From: Halichondria panicea
Taxonomy: Eukaryota; Porifera; Demospongiae; Suberitida; Halichondriidae
Length of the DNA stretch: 64,000 bases
Reading direction: 5' to 3'
Assembly: GCF_963675165.1 (NCBI RefSeq)
Contig: NC_087377.1
Location: 2,882,978-2,946,977 of the forward strand
Shown in pieces: positions 1,907 to 55,972 of the stretch. The notes beneath the pieces were generated by a model. It ran no database searches, was not told the origin of the DNA, and saw only the letters and a list, made by a program, of their open reading frames with translations. Numbering within the stretch: position 1 is the stretch's first letter; each line of letters begins with the position of its first letter. Both the position numbers and the translations under genes were made by a program.

Positions 1907-2181
1907 GGCCACTCCAAGTGATACTCTGGTTTCTGGTCCACCGCCCGCATCAGATTTTATTCTTGGATTTCTATCTCATTATTGGATTTCTATCTCATTA
2001 TTTCTACTACGCATGCGCAGAATGATCCATGTGGTACAAAATAGTGTGATAATGATATTCATTTGCAAAATAATGAGATTCATAAGGTGAAATTGATAAT
2101 GACATAATGAGAAAAGCCGCCCGCCCGCATGCAATTAGAAAAACTTCAGGACCAGAAACCAGAGTGTCACTTGGAGTGGCC
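1907..2181. mobile_element. 275-bp MITE related to the 46-50 kb IS630/Tc1-like element
   Basis: Termini GGCCACTCCAAGTGA and its inverse are flanked by TAA on both sides. The corresponding site in the second duplication unit (about 6136-6145, gcataatccatg) is empty. Its internal sequence matches both ends of the transposon at 46362-49980 but in the opposite orientation, so it is an internally deleted derivative. Insertion postdates the segmental duplication, or the element was lost precisely from the other copy. Confidence 0.88.
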
Positions 2182-44800: not shown

Positions 44801-46331
44801 CAGAGCTCTGTCCAGTGGTGACCGTCCCTCATCATCCCTCACATCTGTACATTACACACAGTCAAACACAATAGTTACACGAACAAAACAGTCAGGGCTG
44901 CATTGAGGGGGGGCGGGGGCGAGGGGGGTAATTCGCCCCCCCCCCCTAGGATCAGGCAGATTCATTTGTACTGCTATAATTCTGATAACTAAGCCCCTCC
45001 TACAGTTTTAATTTTCCCAATTCGCCCCCCCTAATCCAAAATCCTCCCTGACAGTGCCTAATAAACTGGGCAGAAGCAAAGACGAACAGCAGGAGAGGCT
45101 ATGGGAACAAAATACAGATACATGTACTACGATAAAGTCAACACGAACATTTCTCGCTATACGGTATGTAAGTAGTCTCTTAGTGTGTACAAATATGAGT
45201 ACAGGGACTGTCAATAGAAGCTAAAACTCAAAACCATCCGTGCGTTGCAGTTTTAATCTAGGCCTGCCGTTTTTAATTAACTTTCCTCTCTCCTTTATCT
45301 ATGATCTCACCAAGATCCATCTTCCTCTCCTCCACCAGATACTGCACCACGTCTTTACTTCCTCTCACACAAGCCCAGTGAAGAGGAGTCTTGTTATCCT
45401 TATCCCTCACATCTGTTGTGGAACAGAGTTCAACTACCACAGATACTAACAGTATATAATTATTATTATGGTGAATGGAGGAACAAAATGGTACTTCAAC
45501 CACAAAATATATCATATGTAAAAGCGTAAGTACTGTACATAGCAAATGTTTTACTACGCACAATAGCAAGTTCGTGAAAAATTTATCTTTTCGCTACGTA
45601 CAATAACACAAATGTAACTTACCAGTGCTACATCCGAGCTCCTGGATCAGGAACTTTACCACGTCTTTATGACCTCCCTCACACGCATAGCAAAGTGGAG
45701 ACATGTTGTCTATCCCACCAACTTTATCAGTACGAGCTCCATAAGTAGCAAGTGTCTTCACAACCTCAAGGTAGCCCTTAAAACAAGCCTTGTGTAATGG
45801 AGGCAGCTTATCCGCCCACTCGTCACTCCAGTAGAGCTGGTGGTTGGGGTCTGCCCCCTGTCCCAACAGGGACCTCAATTTGATGACATCCCCTACAGCC
45901 TCCCATAAGTCCACGGCTAGCTTCTTTTGAGCACTGTACAAAATACAGAGAATAACTTGATGTGTATATCATTTGTATACAAGTGACACCATGCGCGCAC
46001 ATCCAGCTGTCACTTTGCTATAATTATATGGATCATAGCTAGCTAGCTAGCTAGCTAGCTACTGTAAAACCTTGCGACACTTTTAAGTACGTTTTGCGAA
46101 AATAGAGTTTTAATGTATACACAAAAAATGAATAATTACGATGCTATAATTATAAATGGGCAAAAATTTAGTGTCGCATATTTAGAGGGTTGCCTTAAAT
46201 AGAGGTTTTACAGTATCCTGCTCTGACTCTACTAATGGAATGAGCCTCCCTCCATGCAATCACAAGGTGCTACCATGAGTAGTAATTATAGTCTACATGT
46301 TCACTCACTCTGAGTCTTGTTCGGTAGCCAT
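41893..46331 (-). CDS. Ankyrin and zinc-ribbon protein (gene H)
   Basis: Eight exons with matching phases: 46309-46331 (MATEQDSE), 45623-45933, 45311-45412, 44614-44844, 43940-44158, 43713-43805, 43095-43270 and 41893-42483, encoding 581 residues. Residues 8-326 form ANK repeats; exon 3 is a clean one (KTPLHWACVRGSKDVVQYL) and exons 4-5 are a duplicated pair with longer, acidic variants. Residues about 335-352 contain CPNCEES, then CKNCPEC, a paired-Cys zinc ribbon. The C-terminal 196 residues start VDQLSLLGFDIVVLVHRD, then become Ser/Thr/Gln-rich and disordered. This layout suggests an adaptor protein binding partners through ANK repeats; no substrate can be named. It is a tandem paralogue of gene G, apparently complete. 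A transposon begins 31 bp upstream of the ATG and may have altered its promoter. Confidence 0.82.
44312..44358. repeat. Perfect short hairpin
   Basis: Palindrome TAGCCTCGAATCCACACCG, loop, and exact inverse, in an intron of gene H. It belongs to the same hairpin family as 39987-40044. Confidence 0.85.
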
Positions 46332-46591
46332 TTCTCAAAAGCCTCGTTTTTCCAGACTTTAGGCCACTCCAAGTGATACTCTGGTTTCTCCTGAAGTTTT
46401 TCTAATTGCATGCGGGCGGGCGGCTTTTCTCATTATGTCATTATCAATTTCACCTTATGAATCTCATTATTTTTCAAATGAATATCATTACTGTGATTTT
46501 TTACACCTTGCAATAACGCAAATTAACGCATGCGCAGAATTAAGGTTTGAATCTGGCCAAAGATTACTCCGAAGTACAGTAGATTTAGCTG

Positions 46592-48538
46592 ATGGCTGTG
46601 AGAGGAGGAAGTTCAACTTCATGTGAATCAAAGAGGATATCTGCCTACAGTGAAGACATTCGATGGAGGATGGTGTGGCAGCGTGAGGTTGAAAAGCTTT
46701 CCCTGAAGAATATTGCTTCAAATCTGTCTGTAGATGCTTCTACTGTTTACAGGATTGTGAACACTTTTCAGACAACTGGAACAGTTATGAAAAAGTTATA
46801 CACCTGTGAGAACCTCCCTATCAAGATGACAAGGCCAGTGCAGCTAACTGTGCTTATCTCTTTCCTTGGCAATCTGTTGTAGAAATTACCACAATGGGTA
46901 AGGAATCGTTATGATGAATTAGATGAAGTTGTATGTGAGCTCCTCCCTGACAAACAAACTGTAGTCTAGGTAACCGCCTTATCAGTCAAGTAGGCTAAAA
47001 AATCTGTGTCCTTTGATGTAAGCTTTGATGTCTCTTTGTGCATATGTAGTTATAAAAAAAAAAAAAAAAAAAAAGAAACCTTTGACTAGCTAGGAAGAGT
47101 AGCAGCAGTAGTAGTAGGAAGAGTAGCAGTAGCAGTAGTAGCAGTGCAAGCAGGACTAGACTAGATTAAAAAGTTGGTGGAAAGAATAACTGACCGTTTG
47201 GACGTCACCTGGCTGCCAGACTTTCATCTGGACTCTTCCCCCTGAGTAGCTGGCCTTTCTCTAAGCCACAAAACTGAGCAAGAAGCTGAAGAAGCAGCTA
47301 GAGAATTGTGAGGCGTGGCTCAACTAGTTAGCCCAGCCCAGAGGAATTGTTACCGTGGGTACTGAACAACCGTAGAAGTAGGGCTACCCCTGGCTTTACT
47401 GAATTAACTAGCTGTGTCTGCTGTCTAGTTGGACCAGATTTAGCTAGATAATGGGGTAGAGAATAGTTGAGCGGTGCTGTGTGTAGCTTGAACTGTACTG
47501 GCTGGCAAGAATCTAGTAAGCACCCTATGCACTGATAACTCGTCAGAATGGAGGGTATGTTCTAGGGATCTGGACAGCTGTACATCCAAAGGAGCCAGGG
47601 AGTGCCAATCATCTTCTCCCAGTCTCTGACACGCTAAACAAAAGGAGCTAGAACTGGGAGTCCCAGCTAGAATTGCTAGCCGGATCTAGACTAATAGAAT
47701 GACATGGAGGCGTGGTGAGGCCGGATCCACACTAATTGATCGACCTAAAGACGCTCCTGTTCCAGATTTCACGAATGGCAAGGAAAGGGTTATGCTTGTT
47801 TTAGATAAGCCTGGGATCTATCTGTGGGAAATCCAGTATGAATTAAGCTGGATGTTTGGTTTAAGCATCAGCCTTTCATCTCTGTGCACTTTTCTGAAGA
47901 AGAATAATTTCCGTAGAAAGAAGATGCAATTAGTAGCTTCACAGAGAGATGAAGAACTTAGAGCTAGTTATGTCAGTGAAGTTTCAATGTACGAAGATCA
48001 TTTTCCTATTTTCATTGACGAGACTGGCTGTGACCGACGAAATGCTCTCCGTAAGTATGGATATGGAGTGCGAGGCATGCCTGTCAAATGCCAAAAACTA
48101 CTTGTGAGAGGCGAGCGTGTTTCAGCGATTGCAGCTATGTCAATCAATGGTATTGTAGATCTTAAGATTGTACGTGGGTCTGTTAATGGAGATGTCTATG
48201 TCGATTTCATTGAAAAGCAGTTATTACCACACCTCATGACTTTCGATGGGTATAATTCGAATAGCGTTGTAATAATGGATAACTGTTCAGTACATCACGT
48301 AACAGGTGTAGCCAGTGTTATTCGTGAGATGGGAAGTCTGGTCCATTATCTCCCTCCCTATTATAACCCTATTGAGATGCTTTTCAGTAAAGTTAAGTCG
48401 TCAATCAGGCTAATGGAACTGGAATTGAGTGCTACAATGGATATCAAGACTACAGTTCTAACTGCATTTTCAACAATAACAAAAGAAGACTGTGAAGCAT
48501 GGATTGAATCGTGTGGAATATACAGTTCTAAATACTGA
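46592..48538 (+). pseudogene. IS630/Tc1-family DDE transposase split by an insertion
   Basis: The N-terminal part (46592-46857) holds a helix-turn-helix region (LSLKNIASNLSVDASTVYRI). The catalytic part (47794-48538) has FIDETGCDRR, VVIMDNCSVHH and YLPPYYNPIE, that is D, D and E with 31 residues between the last two. Removing the nested element and one TTAT puts both parts in one frame of about 336 residues, a normal length for this family. As it stands, translation of the first part ends shortly after the insertion and the second part starts from an internal ATG inside the nested element. The copy is therefore probably inactive. Apart from the insertion the catalytic part is open with no stops, so the element was recently active. 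Confidence 0.9.
46858..47789. mobile_element. Nested 932-bp element with TTAT duplication
   Basis: The ends CTCTTTCCTTGGCAATCTG and ...CGAATGGCAAGGAAAGGG are imperfect inverses, flanked by TTAT at 46854-46857 and 47790-47793. A near-identical copy in opposite orientation lies at 54611-55557, also flanked by TTAT. The interior has a poly-A run (about 47047-47072) and AGC/AGT repeats; no ORF. A TTAT target could point to piggyBac-like TTAA-type integration, but no transposase is visible. Confidence 0.85.
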
Positions 48539-48676
48539 ACAGACTTATATCACTTGCTGTTTTGTATGTTCTAAGTTATCACATAACATTGTACTTGCAT
48601 GAATGAATCATTACAAAACATTAATCTTTACTACAGTAACATATACCTGTACATGTACATGAATGACAAAAAAATA

Positions 48677-49475
48677 TTATGTAAGGTTACGTAGAGCATC
48701 AAAAACAATAGCCTTTTGTTCAGCAAGTTGAGAGGCCGAGATAATGTTGTCCTCAAAAAGTTCTTGTAGGAACCGTAGTTGTTGTAAATTCTTTGATCTT
48801 AAATCAGTGCATTTTCCAGGTGAAACTCCTACAATTCCCGAATCAGGTCTTGAACTCGAAGCGGCCGGACGATTTTGAGGAGTTGAAAACGCTTTGGCAA
48901 TTGCTCCAGCAGCTCCAGCAAAGGTTTCAGCAAGGGAGTCCTTTTTCAGGCGTTTCTGAGGCATTCCAGTAATCATTGGCACATGTGGAGGGTCCTTGTA
49001 GTCGTCATGGGTACCACACTGAATCATTTGCGCCCACAATTTTAATTGTGGTGTATTGTAGGTCGATTCGTCATGCTGATTCTTAAGCTTGCCATATATC
49101 TCCTCAAGTTTATCCGCTCCTTAGATAGCTGCTTTCCTTTCTTTCTACTAGGTTCTGGATTTATATCACTATCTTCTTCAGCATCTATATCTTCACATGT
49201 TTGCACCCACAAAGATATCTCACAAGAACTATTTGCTTTTTCGTACATAACCTTGAGATCTTTGGCTGAAACAAGCCACACCTTCGCAGATTGACGCCCA
49301 TCGAAGTAGCCCACATCTACTGAACTGTTAGGTAACTCATCCCCGAGTTAAGTATCAATTTGTGTTTTTAATTGAGAAACACTTTCAAATTTTCCTTTGA
49401 AATCATGTAGTTGTCTTGTTATTGCTTTCTTTCTTGCGTTTTACAGGAGTCAAGACTTTAACTTTGTACTGATAA
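48677..49475 (-). pseudogene. Second, antisense gene of the IS630/Tc1-like element
   Basis: Minus-strand reading gives, in order, AITRQLHDFKGKFESVSQLK, a stop, VGYFDGRQSAKVWLVSAKDL, an acidic stretch, a frame change near 49110, DKLEEIYGKLKNQ, LKLWAQMIQCGTHDDY and a C-terminus ending FDALRNLT at 48677. One nonsense codon and at least one frameshift break a protein of about 270 residues. The middle LKLWAQMI..GTHDDYKDPP segment looks conserved and structured. The family is not known to me; an accessory DNA-binding or regulatory protein is an inference from its place inside the transposon. Confidence 0.6.
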
Positions 49476-50378
49476 ACAGGTGCTGTTATCTGTAAAACAG
49501 GGAACATGACATAATTATTATATCTATATCTTACAGACTATATAGTATTATACTCTGAGTACACAATTATTTAATACCTTTTGAGGTTGAGAAACACCAG
49601 GAGGCTGATGACAAGTAGAAAAAAATGTACTATATTTGCTAGGACTTGACCTTGATTGCTAGTTATAACACGAAAAGATGTACCACACCTAGACTGAGAG
49701 TTAGACATGTTGATCAGCAAGCCAGACTGAGAGACACTAAAGCAAATTAGTACTGGTTTCCAGAATCTTCACTGTGAACGACCACGAGGTCTAACGCATG
49801 CGCATGCGCAGGTAACCCACACGTACAACACTGAAATCGCAGTATCACACTATTTTGTACCACATGGACCATTCTGTGCATGCGTAGTAGAAATAATGAG
49901 ATAGAAATCCAATAATGAGATAGAAATCCAAGAATAAAATCTGATGCGGGCCAGAAACCAGAGTATCACTTGGAGTGGCCTTAATTTAAATAAGATGGCC
50001 CCACCCACTTGTAGAGCATTCACGTGCACCACTTCGGAACGATGGAAAAGGGTCACTAAACTAGAAAGCTAGAAATTAAATTTTCTTCCAAAAATTAGAA
50101 TGTAAAATATCTCACAGCTCAACCAGCAACTTAATTGCAAATGTCAGTAACTCATAATTTATAATGGCTATACAGTCAGCTAAGAGTCATTGTAATTATT
50201 GATTGCATGCTTCTTCACTTGCGATCTTCATTCGTCCCCTTCCAGTATATCTGTATGAAAACATGAGCAGCACAATCAACTAGAGTCTTATAAGCTCTGC
50301 AACAAAATATTGTATGCAATGAAAATATGGATCAGATTTACATTAATAGTGCAAACATACCTTGTCAGGTTCTCATGA

Positions 50379-53300
50379 TCAATTGGTGGCACTATGAGCA
50401 ACTGCAGTTGCTGTCCTCACATACTTGTCTTCAATTTCCTCGGCTACATCGTTACGCTCAACAGTAGGCCTCCTCAGACATTCACATATGTAAGGCCATG
50501 TCATTGGATGCTCTGGATCAGTGACTTCAAGACGCTTGCCCACCATCTCCATTAGGCGGCGTTTGTTATGGCGGTATTCATCTTCGATGTCACTCAAATC
50601 ATTACTCTTCATTCCGAGAGCCAGTCCTAAATCAAACCAATTACAGGTGGCAGTTTTCAGACTCTCACAAATTGTATTAATATCCGCTCTAGTCAGAACA
50701 ATCGGCTGGTCTCCATTGCTGGTATCCTTCTCTGATGATGATCCTGTACACAAGTCAATAATAGATCACAGGCAATGCTTAGACACTATAAGGAACATAA
50801 AATAAATAACGTGTGCATCTTATTATACAAGCCATCTTGGAGTTAGAAAGTGTGTGACTGATGCAAGCAACACAACGCATGTAATGAGGAATGGATAAGA
50901 GTCAAAATTTAAAAAGTTCATAATGTCAAATAATTATTTTAATTGTGTATAATATGCATAATATGCATAATGTCAAATTTGTGAGATCCAAGTTGGGATG
51001 TGTTGGTGTTACGGATATAGAGTTTGGCTACAGGTACACTTAATTGTGTATGTATATTACGCATATAATGTGCATAATGTCGGGATTATGGGCGGTTATA
51101 AGGGTACCGTACGGGTAGAAAATTTTGAGGTGTTTTTAATTTCGCGTTTTTCGTGGGTGGCTGCAGAACACGAAAATTAAAACCCGCGAAAGGCTTTGTT
51201 TACGCATGCGAGATAGTGACACACCCTAACTCCACGAAATTTACTACCCGCGAAATTTTCCAGAATATTGAATTGCACGAAATTTTACACCCTCGAAATT
51301 TTCTACCCGTACGGTATATAAGAGGTTAGGTAACGGTATGGGTAAGGGTTATAGTTAGCATAAGGGGTAAAGGGTTAGGGATAGGGTTATAGGCCATAAG
51401 GTTAGGGTTAGGGTAACAGGCTAGGGGGTCAGGGTCAGGGTTAGGGTTAGGGTAAGAGATTAGAGTTAGGGTAAAGGGGTTAGGGTTAGGGTTGTTCAAC
51501 TTTTACCGTTTGGTTTCTGCTAGTATGCATCTCTTGTGACGATCCTACACACACACAAGCATTGAAAATGGCCAGTTTTATGACAAACTGCATATACAGT
51601 AAGCACCTGAAAATGCACAAATAATTATAATATAAGCAATGTGTATATTAATGGGGAATGCCGGGCCTGTAGGAATCAAGATCATGTGTTTTCCAGAGTG
51701 AAGGCTTTCGAATAGCAATCCGATTATGATACGATCTGATAGAACGTGTTTAATGGACTTGACAGATACTATAGTGAGTAATTTTCGTGGGGTAAAAAAG
51801 TCATTAAAAAATCGAAAACGGTGATTTTCGTCAGTATATAAAAATGTAGGTTGACTTTATTGCCTGTACTGCATTGTATGCGTTCCAGTAAACCACACCT
51901 ATGTATTCGTGAAAGTCAGCTTGCCCACGAAACTATAACGAATTTGTTACCCCACGAAAATTACTCGCAATAATTATATATACGGTATAGTTAATGCAAT
52001 ACACACACTTATACAAATGGCCCCTATAGCGAATAAAAAGCTTCACACAGTGTATGGTAATGGATTGGGCAGTTGTAAGAGTTCTGTTGTGATTGTGGGG
52101 CAGAGGAAGTAAACACTGTGTACACAGGTTATGTAATAAGTAGAAACAGGAGTGCATTCTCCTGGTAGAAAGAGTGACTAAGTTATAGTTGTGACACATG
52201 CACGAGTGCCACCTCGAGGGCAAAGGCACTACTGAGCCAATATATCCTAGCCTCCTCGCAGCCTCTCCTTTTTCTGTGTTATTTGTCATAGTAGTTCAAA
52301 TACGGGACTAATTGGAGGAACAAAGAAAGAAAGAAGAGACAAAGAAAAAGGAGAGCCCGCCTTGCTAAGTCGCGTGACGGTAGACGAGTGGTAGACGAGT
52401 GAAAAAATGAACGTGGGCAATCACTAGCTGGGCGAAGCCTGACAAAGCAAATAGCTACAGCATGCCTACGCAACATAAAAGCTGTTAGCATCGTAGATAG
52501 TAAGCCAGAATCAAGCGTGGAGACATCGTAGACGAGGGCTTACCTAGTAAAGACTAAAGATCTAGATCTATAATTATCTAAATTTAGCTCAAAACAGACC
52601 CTTAGTAGATATAATTATTACAGCAGTATAGTCTACTCTACTCTAGTCTTTCATACTTCCTCTACTGACTAAAGGTCTCACGAAGGCTGACTCTACTGCA
52701 CTGTACTGTACTGTTCATAACAGATTATGTTCCTGGTAAATGCGCTCCAAGTACTGTGTGGGAGGACAGTTATTGAGGTTTTCTCTCGCCCACGCTCGTT
52801 AAAATTTATCTACGCCAGTAGGAGATCACGCGACTTAGCAAGGCAGGCTCTCCTTTTTCTTTGTCGCTTCCTTCTTTCTTTCTTTGTTCCTCCAATTTTC
52901 TCTTCCGTGACAAAGAACAGAAAAAGGAGAGGCTGCGAAGGAGGCTAATGTAATGTTGACCTAATTCACAATACAAACCAATGCACACTATCTGCTACCT
53001 GACTGAGTGGTTGTGTGTGGAGTGGCTAGTGGAGTCACTGCATTACCTGTGAGGAGGATATGACAATAGATATAACAGTCATGCACTAGAGTCCCGCACT
53101 TACAGTTGTTGTAATTACACAATGTTACGATGAAGCTACGTATACTCAAATCATTTAGACTGAAGCTAGCTAATTTAATCAAGATTGACCTGTATAATTA
53201 TAGTGCTAAAATTCCAAAGTGGACCGGATCCCCTGATAGCAACCTTCAATGTATATTAGACAATAGATTGAATAGGGAGAGGGATTGAAGTTACCTTGAA

Positions 53301-55972
53301 TTATATCTGCATTACGCCGGGGTGTAATCGAGGCTATGTATCTAACGTTGAGTAAAATCTAGTACCTTCGACTGTCTGCTAGATTATACTACATTTGTAC
53401 TAAACTTACACTTCCAACTGACACTTGAGACCATAATTATGGGACACAGTACACCAATGAGTTGCACAGTCTTAGCTATACTAGAAGCATTCTAGGTACA
53501 TAAAGATCTCATAGCGTGACAAAGAACGTTTTGTACCTCTAGCTATCTTCACAAAATGTTTTTTTTATTTTCCAATTAACTGAAGCTCACCATTAGGGGG
53601 CATGAGAAAGACGTTTTAGGGGGGCTCTGAATATCTTTTATAGTGATCATAATTCATGAAACATTGTTTCCCGCGTGTTGAGCAAACGTAACACGGATTG
53701 ACATCAAAGGCTCTCTGGTGCCATGCTGCAAATTCAATGTAAAATGTCATGTGACGCTACTTCCGTTTCCAATCCCTCTCTCTATTCAATCTATGATTAG
53801 ACAGGCGATGCGGTTGTAAGAGTTCTGTTGTGATTGTGGGGCAGAGGAAGTAAACACTGTGTACACTGGTTATGCAATACCAGAGGAGGTTGGACACAAA
53901 GCCAAAAAGTTAATAATGACGTAGTCTTTATTAAAATACTTGAACCTTGAACCTACTTTAACAAGCTCTTTTCTAGCCAGCAGGCCACCTTTTCATTCTG
54001 GAAACAAGAGTATACTTAGATGATAGCTGAGCTATACATTCACTCTCATGACTCTACAGCACGGTAGCCCCTATACTTTAATTTATAAAGGTCAGAGGTC
54101 AGTTTGACATGACAGAACTACGACCTTTGTGAGAGGTCACCCCTTTTAGGGACTGCACGATTTCTCTGGAGGGGCGCAGTAGCTAAAAGTTAACTAATTT
54201 GCAGCAGCAGTAACATGAAGGGGCTACTTTATCACAAGAATCAGGGCGCGATGTGCAGTCAAACTGCACAAAACATAAGCTCACGTGATGATTCATTAGT
54301 GATCTTTTGACCCTGTCCACCCTACTCTGATGTAATACAGTCTGCATGCCCTAAGATAGGAAGTGCTACAAGTTGCCTCATGAATTATCTTTGTTTCAAG
54401 TACTGAAATAATGAAGCACTGCAGGTGCTGATGCCTCGGTGGAGATGCCAAAGCTACACAACATAAAGCTACTAATAGCTTTTATACACATGATAAACAA
54501 TTTAATTTTGCTGCATGCAAAAACTCAGAGAGTGGGTAATGATCAACCATAATTGTTGTTAAAAACGATCGATGCCAAAAGTTCAAGTCTAAAATTAATG
54601 GCTGCATTATCCCTTTCCTTGCCATTCGTGAAAATCTGGAACAGGAGCGTCTTTAGGTCGATCAATTAGTGTGGATCCGGCCTCACCACGCCTCCATGTC
54701 ATTCTATTAGTCTAGATCCGGCTAGCAATTCTAGCTGGGACTCCCAGTTCTAGTTCTTTTTGTTTAGCGTGTCAGAGACTGGGAGAAGATGATTGGCACT
54801 CCCTGGCTCCTTTGGATGTACAGATGTCCAGATCCCTAGAACATACCCTCCATTCTGACGAGTTATCAGTGCATAGGGTGCTTACTAGATTCTTGCCAGC
54901 CAGTACAGTTCAAGCTACACACAGCACCGCTCAACTATTCTCTACCCCATTATCTAGCTAAATCTGGTCCAACTAGACAGCAGACACAGCTAGTTAATTC
55001 AGTAAAGCCAGGGCTAGCTGTACTTCTACGGTTGTTCAGTACCCACGGTAACAATTCCTCTGGGCTGGGCTAACTAGTTGAGCCACGCCTCCCAATTCTC
55101 AAGGCTAGGTACATGTCTCTGTCTAGCTGCTTCTTTAGCTTCTTGCTCAGTTTTGTGGCTTAGAGAAAGGCCAGCTACTCAGGGGGAAGAGTCGAGATGA
55201 AAGTCTGGCAGCCAGGTGACGTCCAAACGGTCAGTTATTCTTTCCACCAACTTTTTAATCTAGTCTAGTCCTGCTTGCACTGCTACTACTACTGCTACTC
55301 TTCCTACTACTACTGCTACTCTTCCTAGCTAGTCAAAGGTTCCTTTTTTTTTTTTTTTTTTTTTTAACTACATATGCACAAAGAGACATCAAAGCTTACA
55401 TCAAAGGACACAGATTTTTAGCCTACTTGACTGATAAGGCCCTTACCTAGACTACAGTTTGTTTGTCAGGGAGGAGCTCACATACAACTTCATCTAATTC
55501 ATCATAACGATTCGTTACCGTTGTTGTAATTTCTACAACAGATTGCCAAGGAAAGAGTTATAGCAGAGCCTTGCAGCTCTCTTCTCATTCTTGCAGCTAC
55601 CAATAGCTAGCGTTCTAGTGCAGAGCTAACTACTAAGTAGAGTAGCAACACTCGGTAAGCAAGTTTGGCTACGTGCTCTTCTGAAAAGGCTGCAATGGCA
55701 TTCAAGTAAGCAAAACTAGGCATAACACAGGGAAAATATTGAAATTTCCTGCTACGTACAGTGCTGCTACAGTGCAGCCCTTAAAATCTGCACTGGTCTT
55801 AAGTTTGCATATTTTCACCAAAACCAGATGTATACGTTCTAATTTGACTAGTAATCATGTTTATTCTGCTGTCTCATCATACCTTGAATAGTGGCATCAT
55901 TCTTTGGACGCTTGGACAGAGTAGTTTCAACTTCTTCACCTGCTCCCAATAATCTTTTGCGCTCTAGAGGAT
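50379..55972 (-). CDS. Duplicated linker and Death-domain exons (gene K or 3' part of gene I)
   Basis: A linker exon at 55883-55972 (ERKRLLGAGEEVETTLSKRPK, a basic NLS-like patch) ends in phase 1 and fits a Death-domain exon starting at 50743. That exon matches the one at 57793-58111 along its whole 319-bp length and encodes NTICESLKTATCNWFDLGLA to TWPYICECLRRPTVERNDVA, the six-helix Death-domain pattern. It either splices at AA|gtatgtgag (50425) or reads to TGA at 50379. A 38-bp open exon at 51507-51544 does not match phase. It may be a separate gene lacking its 5' part, or tandem 3' exons of gene I, since the phase-1 ends are compatible. The intron of about 5 kb is filled with transposons. 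Confidence 0.5.
51103..51318. mobile_element. Palindromic MITE, ACCGTACGGGTAGAAAATTT ends
   Basis: Inverse ends TACCGTACGGGTAGAAAATTT and AAATTTTCTACCCGTACGGTA; a relative of the GCGGGTAATTTTC family. Confidence 0.8.
51320..51502. repeat. Degenerate interstitial telomere-type repeat (TTAGGG)n
   Basis: Many TTAGGG and GGGTTA units with variants (GGTCAGGG, TTAGAG). The orientation is G-rich on the plus strand. Confidence 0.9.
51770..51990. mobile_element. Palindromic MITE, GTAATTTTCGTGGGG family
   Basis: The end gtgagtaattttcgtggggt and its inverse at 51942-51972, with the same interior phrase cgtgaaagtcagcttgccc as the copy at 23070. Confidence 0.65.
52250..52945. mobile_element. About 700-bp foldback element, two nested inverted repeats
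   Basis: Outer arms GCCTCCTCGCAGCCTCTCC and the near-inverse GGAGAGGCTGCGAAGGAGGC are flanked by TA. Inner arms of about 75 bp (52312-52385 and 52826-52896) are also inverted. No transposase. Confidence 0.75.
53266..53791. mobile_element. 526-bp inverted-repeat element with TA duplication
   Basis: The ends GATTGAATAGGGAGAGGGAT and inverse are flanked by TA. Flanking sequence just right of it (53812-53880) duplicates 52070-52140. Confidence 0.8.
54420..55740. repeat. Dispersed repeat interrupted by the TTAT element
   Basis: It shares ggtgctgatgcctcggtgg, aaaaacgatcgatgccaaaa and gctaccaatagctagcg with the uninterrupted copy at 56154-56610. The break is exactly at the TTAT-flanked insert 54611-55557. 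Confidence 0.8.
54611..55557. mobile_element. Second copy of the TTAT-flanked element
   Basis: It is inverted relative to 46858-47789, with few differences. TTAT at 54607-54610 and 55558-55561. The neighbouring repeat at 56154 supplies the pre-insertion arrangement. Confidence 0.85.

Follow-up and report, generated by a model that had tools for sequence, protein, structure and literature searches.

The genome of the sponge Halichondria panicea holds a lineage of IS630-like transposons with two convergent genes, and one copy lies in the 64,000-nucleotide stretch of contig NC_087377.1 that was analysed here (C1:2882978-2946977, hereafter the window). Judged by its sequence, the transposase of this element is IS630-like. 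The second gene, which we call the antisense gene, lies on the opposite strand and meets the transposase gene tail to tail. The two genes stand between ends of their own, at a duplicated TA dinucleotide, they share a history, and recent copies of the pair are present in the genome, so that we deal with a two-gene lineage and not with one chimera. We consider it probable that the lineage is an animal branch of IS630-like elements in which a DD34E-type transposase is accompanied by an oligomerising accessory protein that acts together with it.

Results

The pairing of the two genes was counted over the 131 Mb of the searched genome, which comprises 39 contigs. In the fullest count, which used two transposase queries and three antisense queries, a partner was defined as a convergent match within 3 kb. 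A convergent antisense partner was found at every one of the 28 transposase clusters that reach 900 bp, at 44 of the 50 clusters of at least 700 bp and at 55 of the 63 of at least 600 bp; the count is 61/75 for clusters of at least 400 bp and 63/88 for clusters of any size. With one query per gene, 126 transposase matches fell into 88 clusters and 56 antisense matches into 52, and 45 of these 52 antisense clusters have a convergent transposase at no more than 3 kb, 32 of them at a distance of 72-145 bp. Neighbours in other arrangements amounted, in the same count, to one on the same strand and none divergent. Random placement would produce, by a rough estimate, 0.05 convergent pairs against the 45 observed, and the pairing is far above chance. 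Furthermore, 11 antisense queries that were run on fetched loci revealed the gene or its remains at 30/30 loci of the best transposase matches.

With the window transposase as the only query, a partner is found at 38/38 clusters of at least 700 bp. This was rejected as a general count; with the second transposase query some clusters become longer, and six that reach 700 bp but have no partner are added (C1:10827615, C1:11428942, C12:744797, C14:4091952, C17:3073826 and C6:1158339), and the lower counts are used for that reason. Four of these six clusters contain stops or cover the query only partly.

A chance neighbourhood, a single chimeric copy or host genes lying beside a transposon would be another way to read the locus, and indeed no transposase was detected up to 3 kb away from 24 of 87 antisense clusters. 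The excess of convergent pairs, the complete association at near-full-length loci and the presence of the pair in a second organism (locus L083, below) refute this reading, to which we attach practically no probability. A sequence-only reading of the window had supposed a lineage instead of a chimeric copy and had proposed co-occurrence of the genes as a check; both the supposition and the check agree with these counts. Orphan antisense loci with open frames include C10:3518300, C14:3878600 and C5:5745058, where no transposase was detected within 3 kb. The orphan loci are possibly derivatives or host-adopted copies.

The transposase of the window copy matches Pfam DDE_3 (E 2.5e-19), and the piece upstream of it matches HTH_23 (E 6.4e-7, above the cut-off). 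On the opposite strand, an open frame contains the block LKLWAQMI..GTHDDYKDPP, the conserved form of which is LWAxMI..DxPP. The earlier reading of the locus as an IS630/Tc1-type transposon that carries a further, antisense gene is thus confirmed. The 31 residues that had been noted between the second Asp and the Glu are present in the window copy; they arise from a private 9-bp deletion. The nearest copies, on contigs C11 and C13, read LPPYSPDYNPIE (PPYSPDYNPIE) where the window copy has LPPYYNPIE. Among 12 intact relatives that were aligned, the spacing is 34 in eight, 35 in L023, L032 and L036, and 36 in L038, and DD31E was rejected as a mark of the family.

The marks of the IS630-Tc1-mariner group found here are the spacing of about 34 residues, the TA duplication and the N-terminal helix-turn-helix. 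The NCBIfam model NF033545 (IS630), which has a cut-off of 100 bits, scored 125-153 bits in all six intact relatives tested, and 78.5 bits, below the cut-off, in the broken window copy. HTH_23 was listed for the same number of relatives (6/6) and was above its cut-off in four. Identity to plasmid proteins is 27-32% over 88-99% of the length among the 15 records listed, of 1020. The transposase is distant from Sleeping Beauty (E 2.5e-7) and from Mos1 (E 2.5e-4). In a phylogenetic tree, the two-gene transposases group with 16 bacterial IS630 sequences, apart from Sleeping Beauty and Mos1 (support 90/95); these two are the only eukaryotic references in the tree, and they are partial and have long branches. 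The 12 rows of two-gene transposases lie on one side of a branch with a support of only 43/85. Of 33 matches to the transposase in viral contigs, none was confirmed.

The window contains near-perfect inverted repeats of 32 nt at 46358-46389 and 49953-49984 (97% complementary), with the 15-mer GGCCACTCCAAGTGA, and these were read earlier as the terminal inverted repeats of the two-gene element. The repeats are real, and they are the ends of a miniature inverted-repeat transposable element (MITE) of 275 bp which the two-gene element has split. When 46491-49842 and one TA are taken out, the remaining 265 bp align to the MITE with a gap-free junction, and the halves to the left and the right have 96% and 93% identity, respectively, to the uninterrupted MITE at 1907-2181 (blastn). 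Since the joined flanks restore a MITE with one TA, the GGCC repeats cannot be the ends of the two-gene element. Moreover, an unsplit, independent copy at C11:3282497-3284884, of 2386 bp with one TA, has the same kind of TA-bounded ends (TACTGCGATTTCAGTACATTTTGCAAT and TACTGCGATTTTTTTACACCTTGCAAT), no match to the MITE and no 932-bp insert.

The 15-mer occurs 222 times in forward and 223 times in reverse orientation in the genome, while the reversed control sequence has no occurrence. On contig C1 there are 38 pairs of opposed GGCC ends at most 10 kb apart, of which 34 span 190-279 bp. The four larger pairs span 1002, 1916, 2472 and 3619 bp, the last one being the element in the window. Both the gene pair and MITE pieces on each side were found in two of the four (the window and L023), and neither gene lies inside L074 or L075. 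A search for both genes between GGCC ends, as was proposed earlier, is therefore misleading. Likewise, L023 and L038 have MITE pieces around their gene pairs. In view of these spans, the restored MITE, the inner ends of the C11 copy and the deletion behind the 31-residue spacing, the idea that the GGCC repeats delimit a new DD31E lineage is refuted and retains only a vanishing probability, although near-perfect repeats at a fitting distance spoke for it.

The MITE family can be described as 275 bp long, with GGCCACTCCAAGTGA ends, 3-bp TTA or TAA duplications and 222 + 223 ends genome-wide; five other copies that were examined have TTA or TAA flanks. No source of transposase for this family came to light, a search by family not having been made. 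We take the 3-bp duplication of the outer MITE to be a PIF/Harbinger-like mark. The two-gene element itself has a 2-bp TA duplication, so the parallel with PIF/Harbinger that had been drawn for it does not extend to the target site; the PIF/Harbinger transposase belongs to another family. The reverse nesting is seen in L050 (C1:11458596-11461359), where the same MITE lies within a two-gene element, and this element has 2762 bp as compared with 2477-2482 bp in three sister copies.

The window copy is thus a two-gene element that was inserted into the MITE at a TA and was split by a 932-bp repeat (Table 1). It looks dead, because this insertion divides the transposase and the antisense gene has lost its frame in the N-terminal half. 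The 932-bp repeat has 41 matches in the genome including itself, of which 38 are full-length; all matches other than itself are 89-97% identical to it. The number of 41 is a lower bound, since a second copy in the window, at 54632-55565, is not among the matches. The copies at 46858-47789 and 54632-55565 are about 95% identical, and no long gene was noted in them.

TA-bounded inverted repeats were found by a script around 24 of the 43 loci that match both genes, including two derivatives; four of the 24 calls (L011, L013, L059 and L064) are doubtful in place or size. At four of the 19 loci missed by the script (L023, L024, L026 and L029), TACAG or TACTG arms could be seen by eye. The ends are mostly TACAG or TACTG, with TATTG instead in one subfamily, and 18 of the 24 elements have lengths between 2202 and 2502 bp. 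As a polyadenylation signal, the motif AWTAAA or its complement lies between the genes in 10 of 14 pairs, with no clear pattern.

A derivative of 1350 bp is present on contigs C3 and C12 (L070:3744-5093 and L071:3092-4441). The two sites are 100% identical and their flanks differ. This derivative has lost most of the transposase and keeps an antisense frame of 243 codons without a start. Furthermore, L036 and L038 share 99.3% identity over 2231 bp. The identical derivatives with different flanks and the identity of L036 and L038 show that two-gene elements moved recently, and they suggest that such elements can be moved in trans.

The two genes have a common history. The distance matrices of both genes correlate with a Mantel r of 0.97 (p 0.0001) in a sample of 14 elements that have long open frames for both genes, near-copies included. 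For five young pairs, the ratio of non-synonymous to synonymous changes (dN/dS) is 0.20, 0.37, 0.53, 0.61 and 0.97 in the antisense gene, and 0.19, 0.21, 0.48 and 0.65 in the transposase, with one pair without changes. These ratios are weak evidence, as the changes are few. The stronger evidence is that frames are open between subfamilies whose shared residues go down to about 22%.

A second organism is indicated by a scan of prokaryote genomes with a pattern from the transposase alignment, which gave 332 relatives, of which 79 loci were kept and joined with five plasmid loci to make 84. One of them, L083, is a contig of 4896 bp with 44% GC in a Nitrosopumilus metagenome-assembled genome (MAG), where it is a single copy. 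It has a transposase and a convergent antisense gene, the N-terminus of which runs into stops. In the H. panicea genome, the best match of the L083 transposase is C9:4092645 (66%; the next best has 54%) and that of the antisense protein is C9:4092067 (54%), which belongs to the same element; the L083 and C9 transposases are sisters in the tree (93/99). Since both genes have their best match in one element and the transposases are sisters, the two genes came as a pair, by inheritance or by transfer. The antisense gene was found at none of the other 83 foreign loci with a transposase match; of these, 71 extend 1500 bp or more on the 3' side, and several come from one genome. By its content L083 appears to be eukaryotic and misbinned, and it is probably contaminating DNA of a sponge host. 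PMC7848895, on a thaumarchaeal symbiont found in the sponge Hymedesmia methanophila, describes a candidate source, which may be linked to isolate HM_N.

The antisense protein looks PB1-like in its N-terminal part and SHOCT-like at its C-terminus, both below curated cut-offs. The order of strands and helices in the N-terminal part resembles that of a PB1 domain, and PB1 accounts for 8 of the 11 structural matches listed. Pfam PF00564 (PB1) was found in 2 of 12 N-terminal domains at E <= 1, with a best value of 0.0026, and the gathering score was not reached; a whole-genome search for PB1 gave six places, none of which is an antisense gene. Pfam PF09851 (SHOCT) was listed for 7 of 10 members, at best with 25.4 bits against a gathering score of 27. 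RNA polymerase and other structural matches of the C-terminal hairpin were set aside as a common arrangement. A sequence search of the PDB gave nothing convincing (best E 0.011, for a DNA glycosylase, followed by p53 at 0.07 and worse ones). Among the domains listed for 10 antisense proteins, with an E limit of 10, there is no Myb/SANT domain, although a diverged one may be present. With one member as query in each case, no relative was found in plasmids or phages. Pattern scans with five close members, which reach close relatives only, gave 21 matches in genome contigs and 12 in viral contigs, none of them confirmed. The mean column identity is 29% for the antisense protein and 54% for the transposase.

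Table 1 Features of the nested locus and of the uninterrupted MITE (positions in the window).
Feature	Position	Strand	Basis
Uninterrupted MITE copy, 275 bp, TAA target duplication	1907..2181	+	Sequence comparison
Left TTA of the target-site duplication of outer MITE (the right TTA is at 49981-49983)	46359..46361	.	Sequence read
Left MITE part (MITE positions 144-275, reversed), ending in TA 46489-46490	46362..46490	-	blastn 96%; gap-free junction
Two-gene IS630-like transposon, 3352 bp without its TA	46491..49842	+	Boundaries from joined flanks; TA duplication 46489-46490 / 49843-49844
Transposase, N-terminal helix-turn-helix part	46592..46857	+	Open reading frame (ORF); HTH_23 E 6.4e-7; aligns to C11 copy up to 46857
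932-bp repeat within transposase gene, foreign to the element	46858..47789	.	Absent from C11 copy; TTAT duplication 46854-46857 / 47790-47793
Transposase, catalytic part, DDE_3, private 9-bp deletion before Glu	47790..48538	+	ORF, Pfam, alignment
Antisense gene, open C-terminal frame (147 codons + stop), LWAxMI..DxPP block, SHOCT-like hairpin	48677..49120	-	ORF, relatives
N-terminal part of antisense gene with broken frame (PB1-like domain)	49121..49440	-	tblastn extent with 11 relatives; frame breaks
Right MITE part (MITE positions 1-148, reversed), starting with TA	49843..49980	-	blastn 93%; joined-flank alignment

The ORFs that flank the locus, 45273-45941 and 50379-50753, appear by eye to be ankyrin-repeat-like and death-domain-like. 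Elsewhere in the genome, at L076 (C2:1948052-1956620), GGCC ends that have diverged MITE flanks lie 8.5 kb apart. Between them are an ORF of the TNP-like RNase H type (PF21787, E 2.7e-25) and three more large ORFs without a Pfam match, one of them on the opposite strand. L076 may be a nested element or a candidate autonomous partner.

Discussion

In the mechanism that we favour, the transposase would cut at the short inverted repeats of its element, most of which have TACAG or TACTG ends, and would insert the element at TA. The accessory protein, with its PB1-like N-terminal domain, LWAxMI..DxPP block and SHOCT-like C-terminal hairpin, may oligomerise and assist or control the transposase, by analogy with Harbinger, in the assembly of the ends, in nuclear entry or in the control of dosage.

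Two other roles of the antisense gene have to be weighed. In signalling and in autophagy, PB1 domains serve as scaffolds. The antisense protein could thus be a regulator or a counter-defence factor, a scaffold of the PB1/SHOCT type that keeps dosage in check or protects the element against silencing by the host, so that its carriers persist longer. The mobile derivative without most of the transposase, which retains its long antisense frame without a start, and the lower conservation of the antisense protein are in favour of such a role. However, the association at all near-full-length loci and the matched divergence of the two genes fit a direct partner equally, and the Harbinger Myb-like partner is likewise the less conserved gene (PMC9179366). 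We regard the regulator as rather unlikely. An antisense gene that was captured once from the host and has been carried as a passenger without benefit would agree with the capture of PB1 into a transposon-derived gene, which is known from plant MUGB proteins (PMC8616336), and with the lack of relatives, at the search sensitivity used here, in plasmids, phages, and contigs of viruses or prokaryotes. Passengers decay, however, and here long frames are open down to about 22% of shared residues and occur in a second organism, which makes a passenger improbable.

Returning to the accessory protein as a partner of the transposase, the comparison with known systems shows both likenesses and differences. 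With bacterial IS630 the element shares a transposase that scores above the NF033545 cut-off in 6/6 relatives and that groups with the bacterial sequences, but the antisense gene was found at 0/83 prokaryotic loci, and the present elements are eukaryotic and mostly of 2.2-2.5 kb. With Tc1/mariner and pogo it shares DDE_3, the helix-turn-helix, the Asp-Glu spacing of about 34 residues, the TA duplication and short inverted repeats. Elements of the IS630-Tc1-mariner group usually have one ORF, according to PMC8533490. Those of the pogo type have one or two, which are said to encode transposases in PMC7386202; as described there, the extra ORF is a transposase and not an accessory protein.

Multi-gene IS630/Tc1 elements are already known, in ciliates. 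These are Tec and TBE, of which Tec has one ORF in the complement (PMC7325037), and Anchois, of 3.6 kb with terminal inverted repeats of about 22 nt and two hypothetical ORFs, as well as the multi-ORF Sardine (PMC3464196). Like the present element, they combine an IS630/Tc1-type DDE transposase with further ORFs. Unlike it, and compared by their descriptions, they belong to the ciliate germline and have three or up to four ORFs, which include a recombinase in Tec and Sardine and a zinc-finger protein in TBE. PIF/Harbinger is similar in having a transposase and a separate partner gene with congruent histories; as PMC9179366 describes it, the Myb-like partner binds both to the transposase, which it lets enter the nucleus, and to the ends, and the trees of the two are congruent. 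Its partner is Myb/SANT-like, probably in contrast to the present one, and the two-gene element here has a TA duplication. In the search listings and cited passages of open-access full texts, which were the scope covered (Repbase and subscription papers lie outside it), a two-gene lineage of animal IS630 elements was not found.

A wider reading is possible, and we put it forward tentatively, at somewhat less than even chances. The lineage may represent an old and recently mobile IS630 branch of animals, of sponges at least, in which the transposase would need a tail-to-tail, oligomerising partner of the PB1 type. This combination would then have been acquired separately from those of Harbinger and the ciliates.

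The transposition of IS630/Tc1/mariner elements is the textbook one-protein system, and it is the base of gene-transfer tools. A second protein that was kept through deep divergence in two organisms raises the question why. The locus in the window also shows a trap for annotation, as the ends of a MITE surround a nested element. With dozens of natural gene pairs in one genome, the need for the partner in cutting, import and control can be tested.

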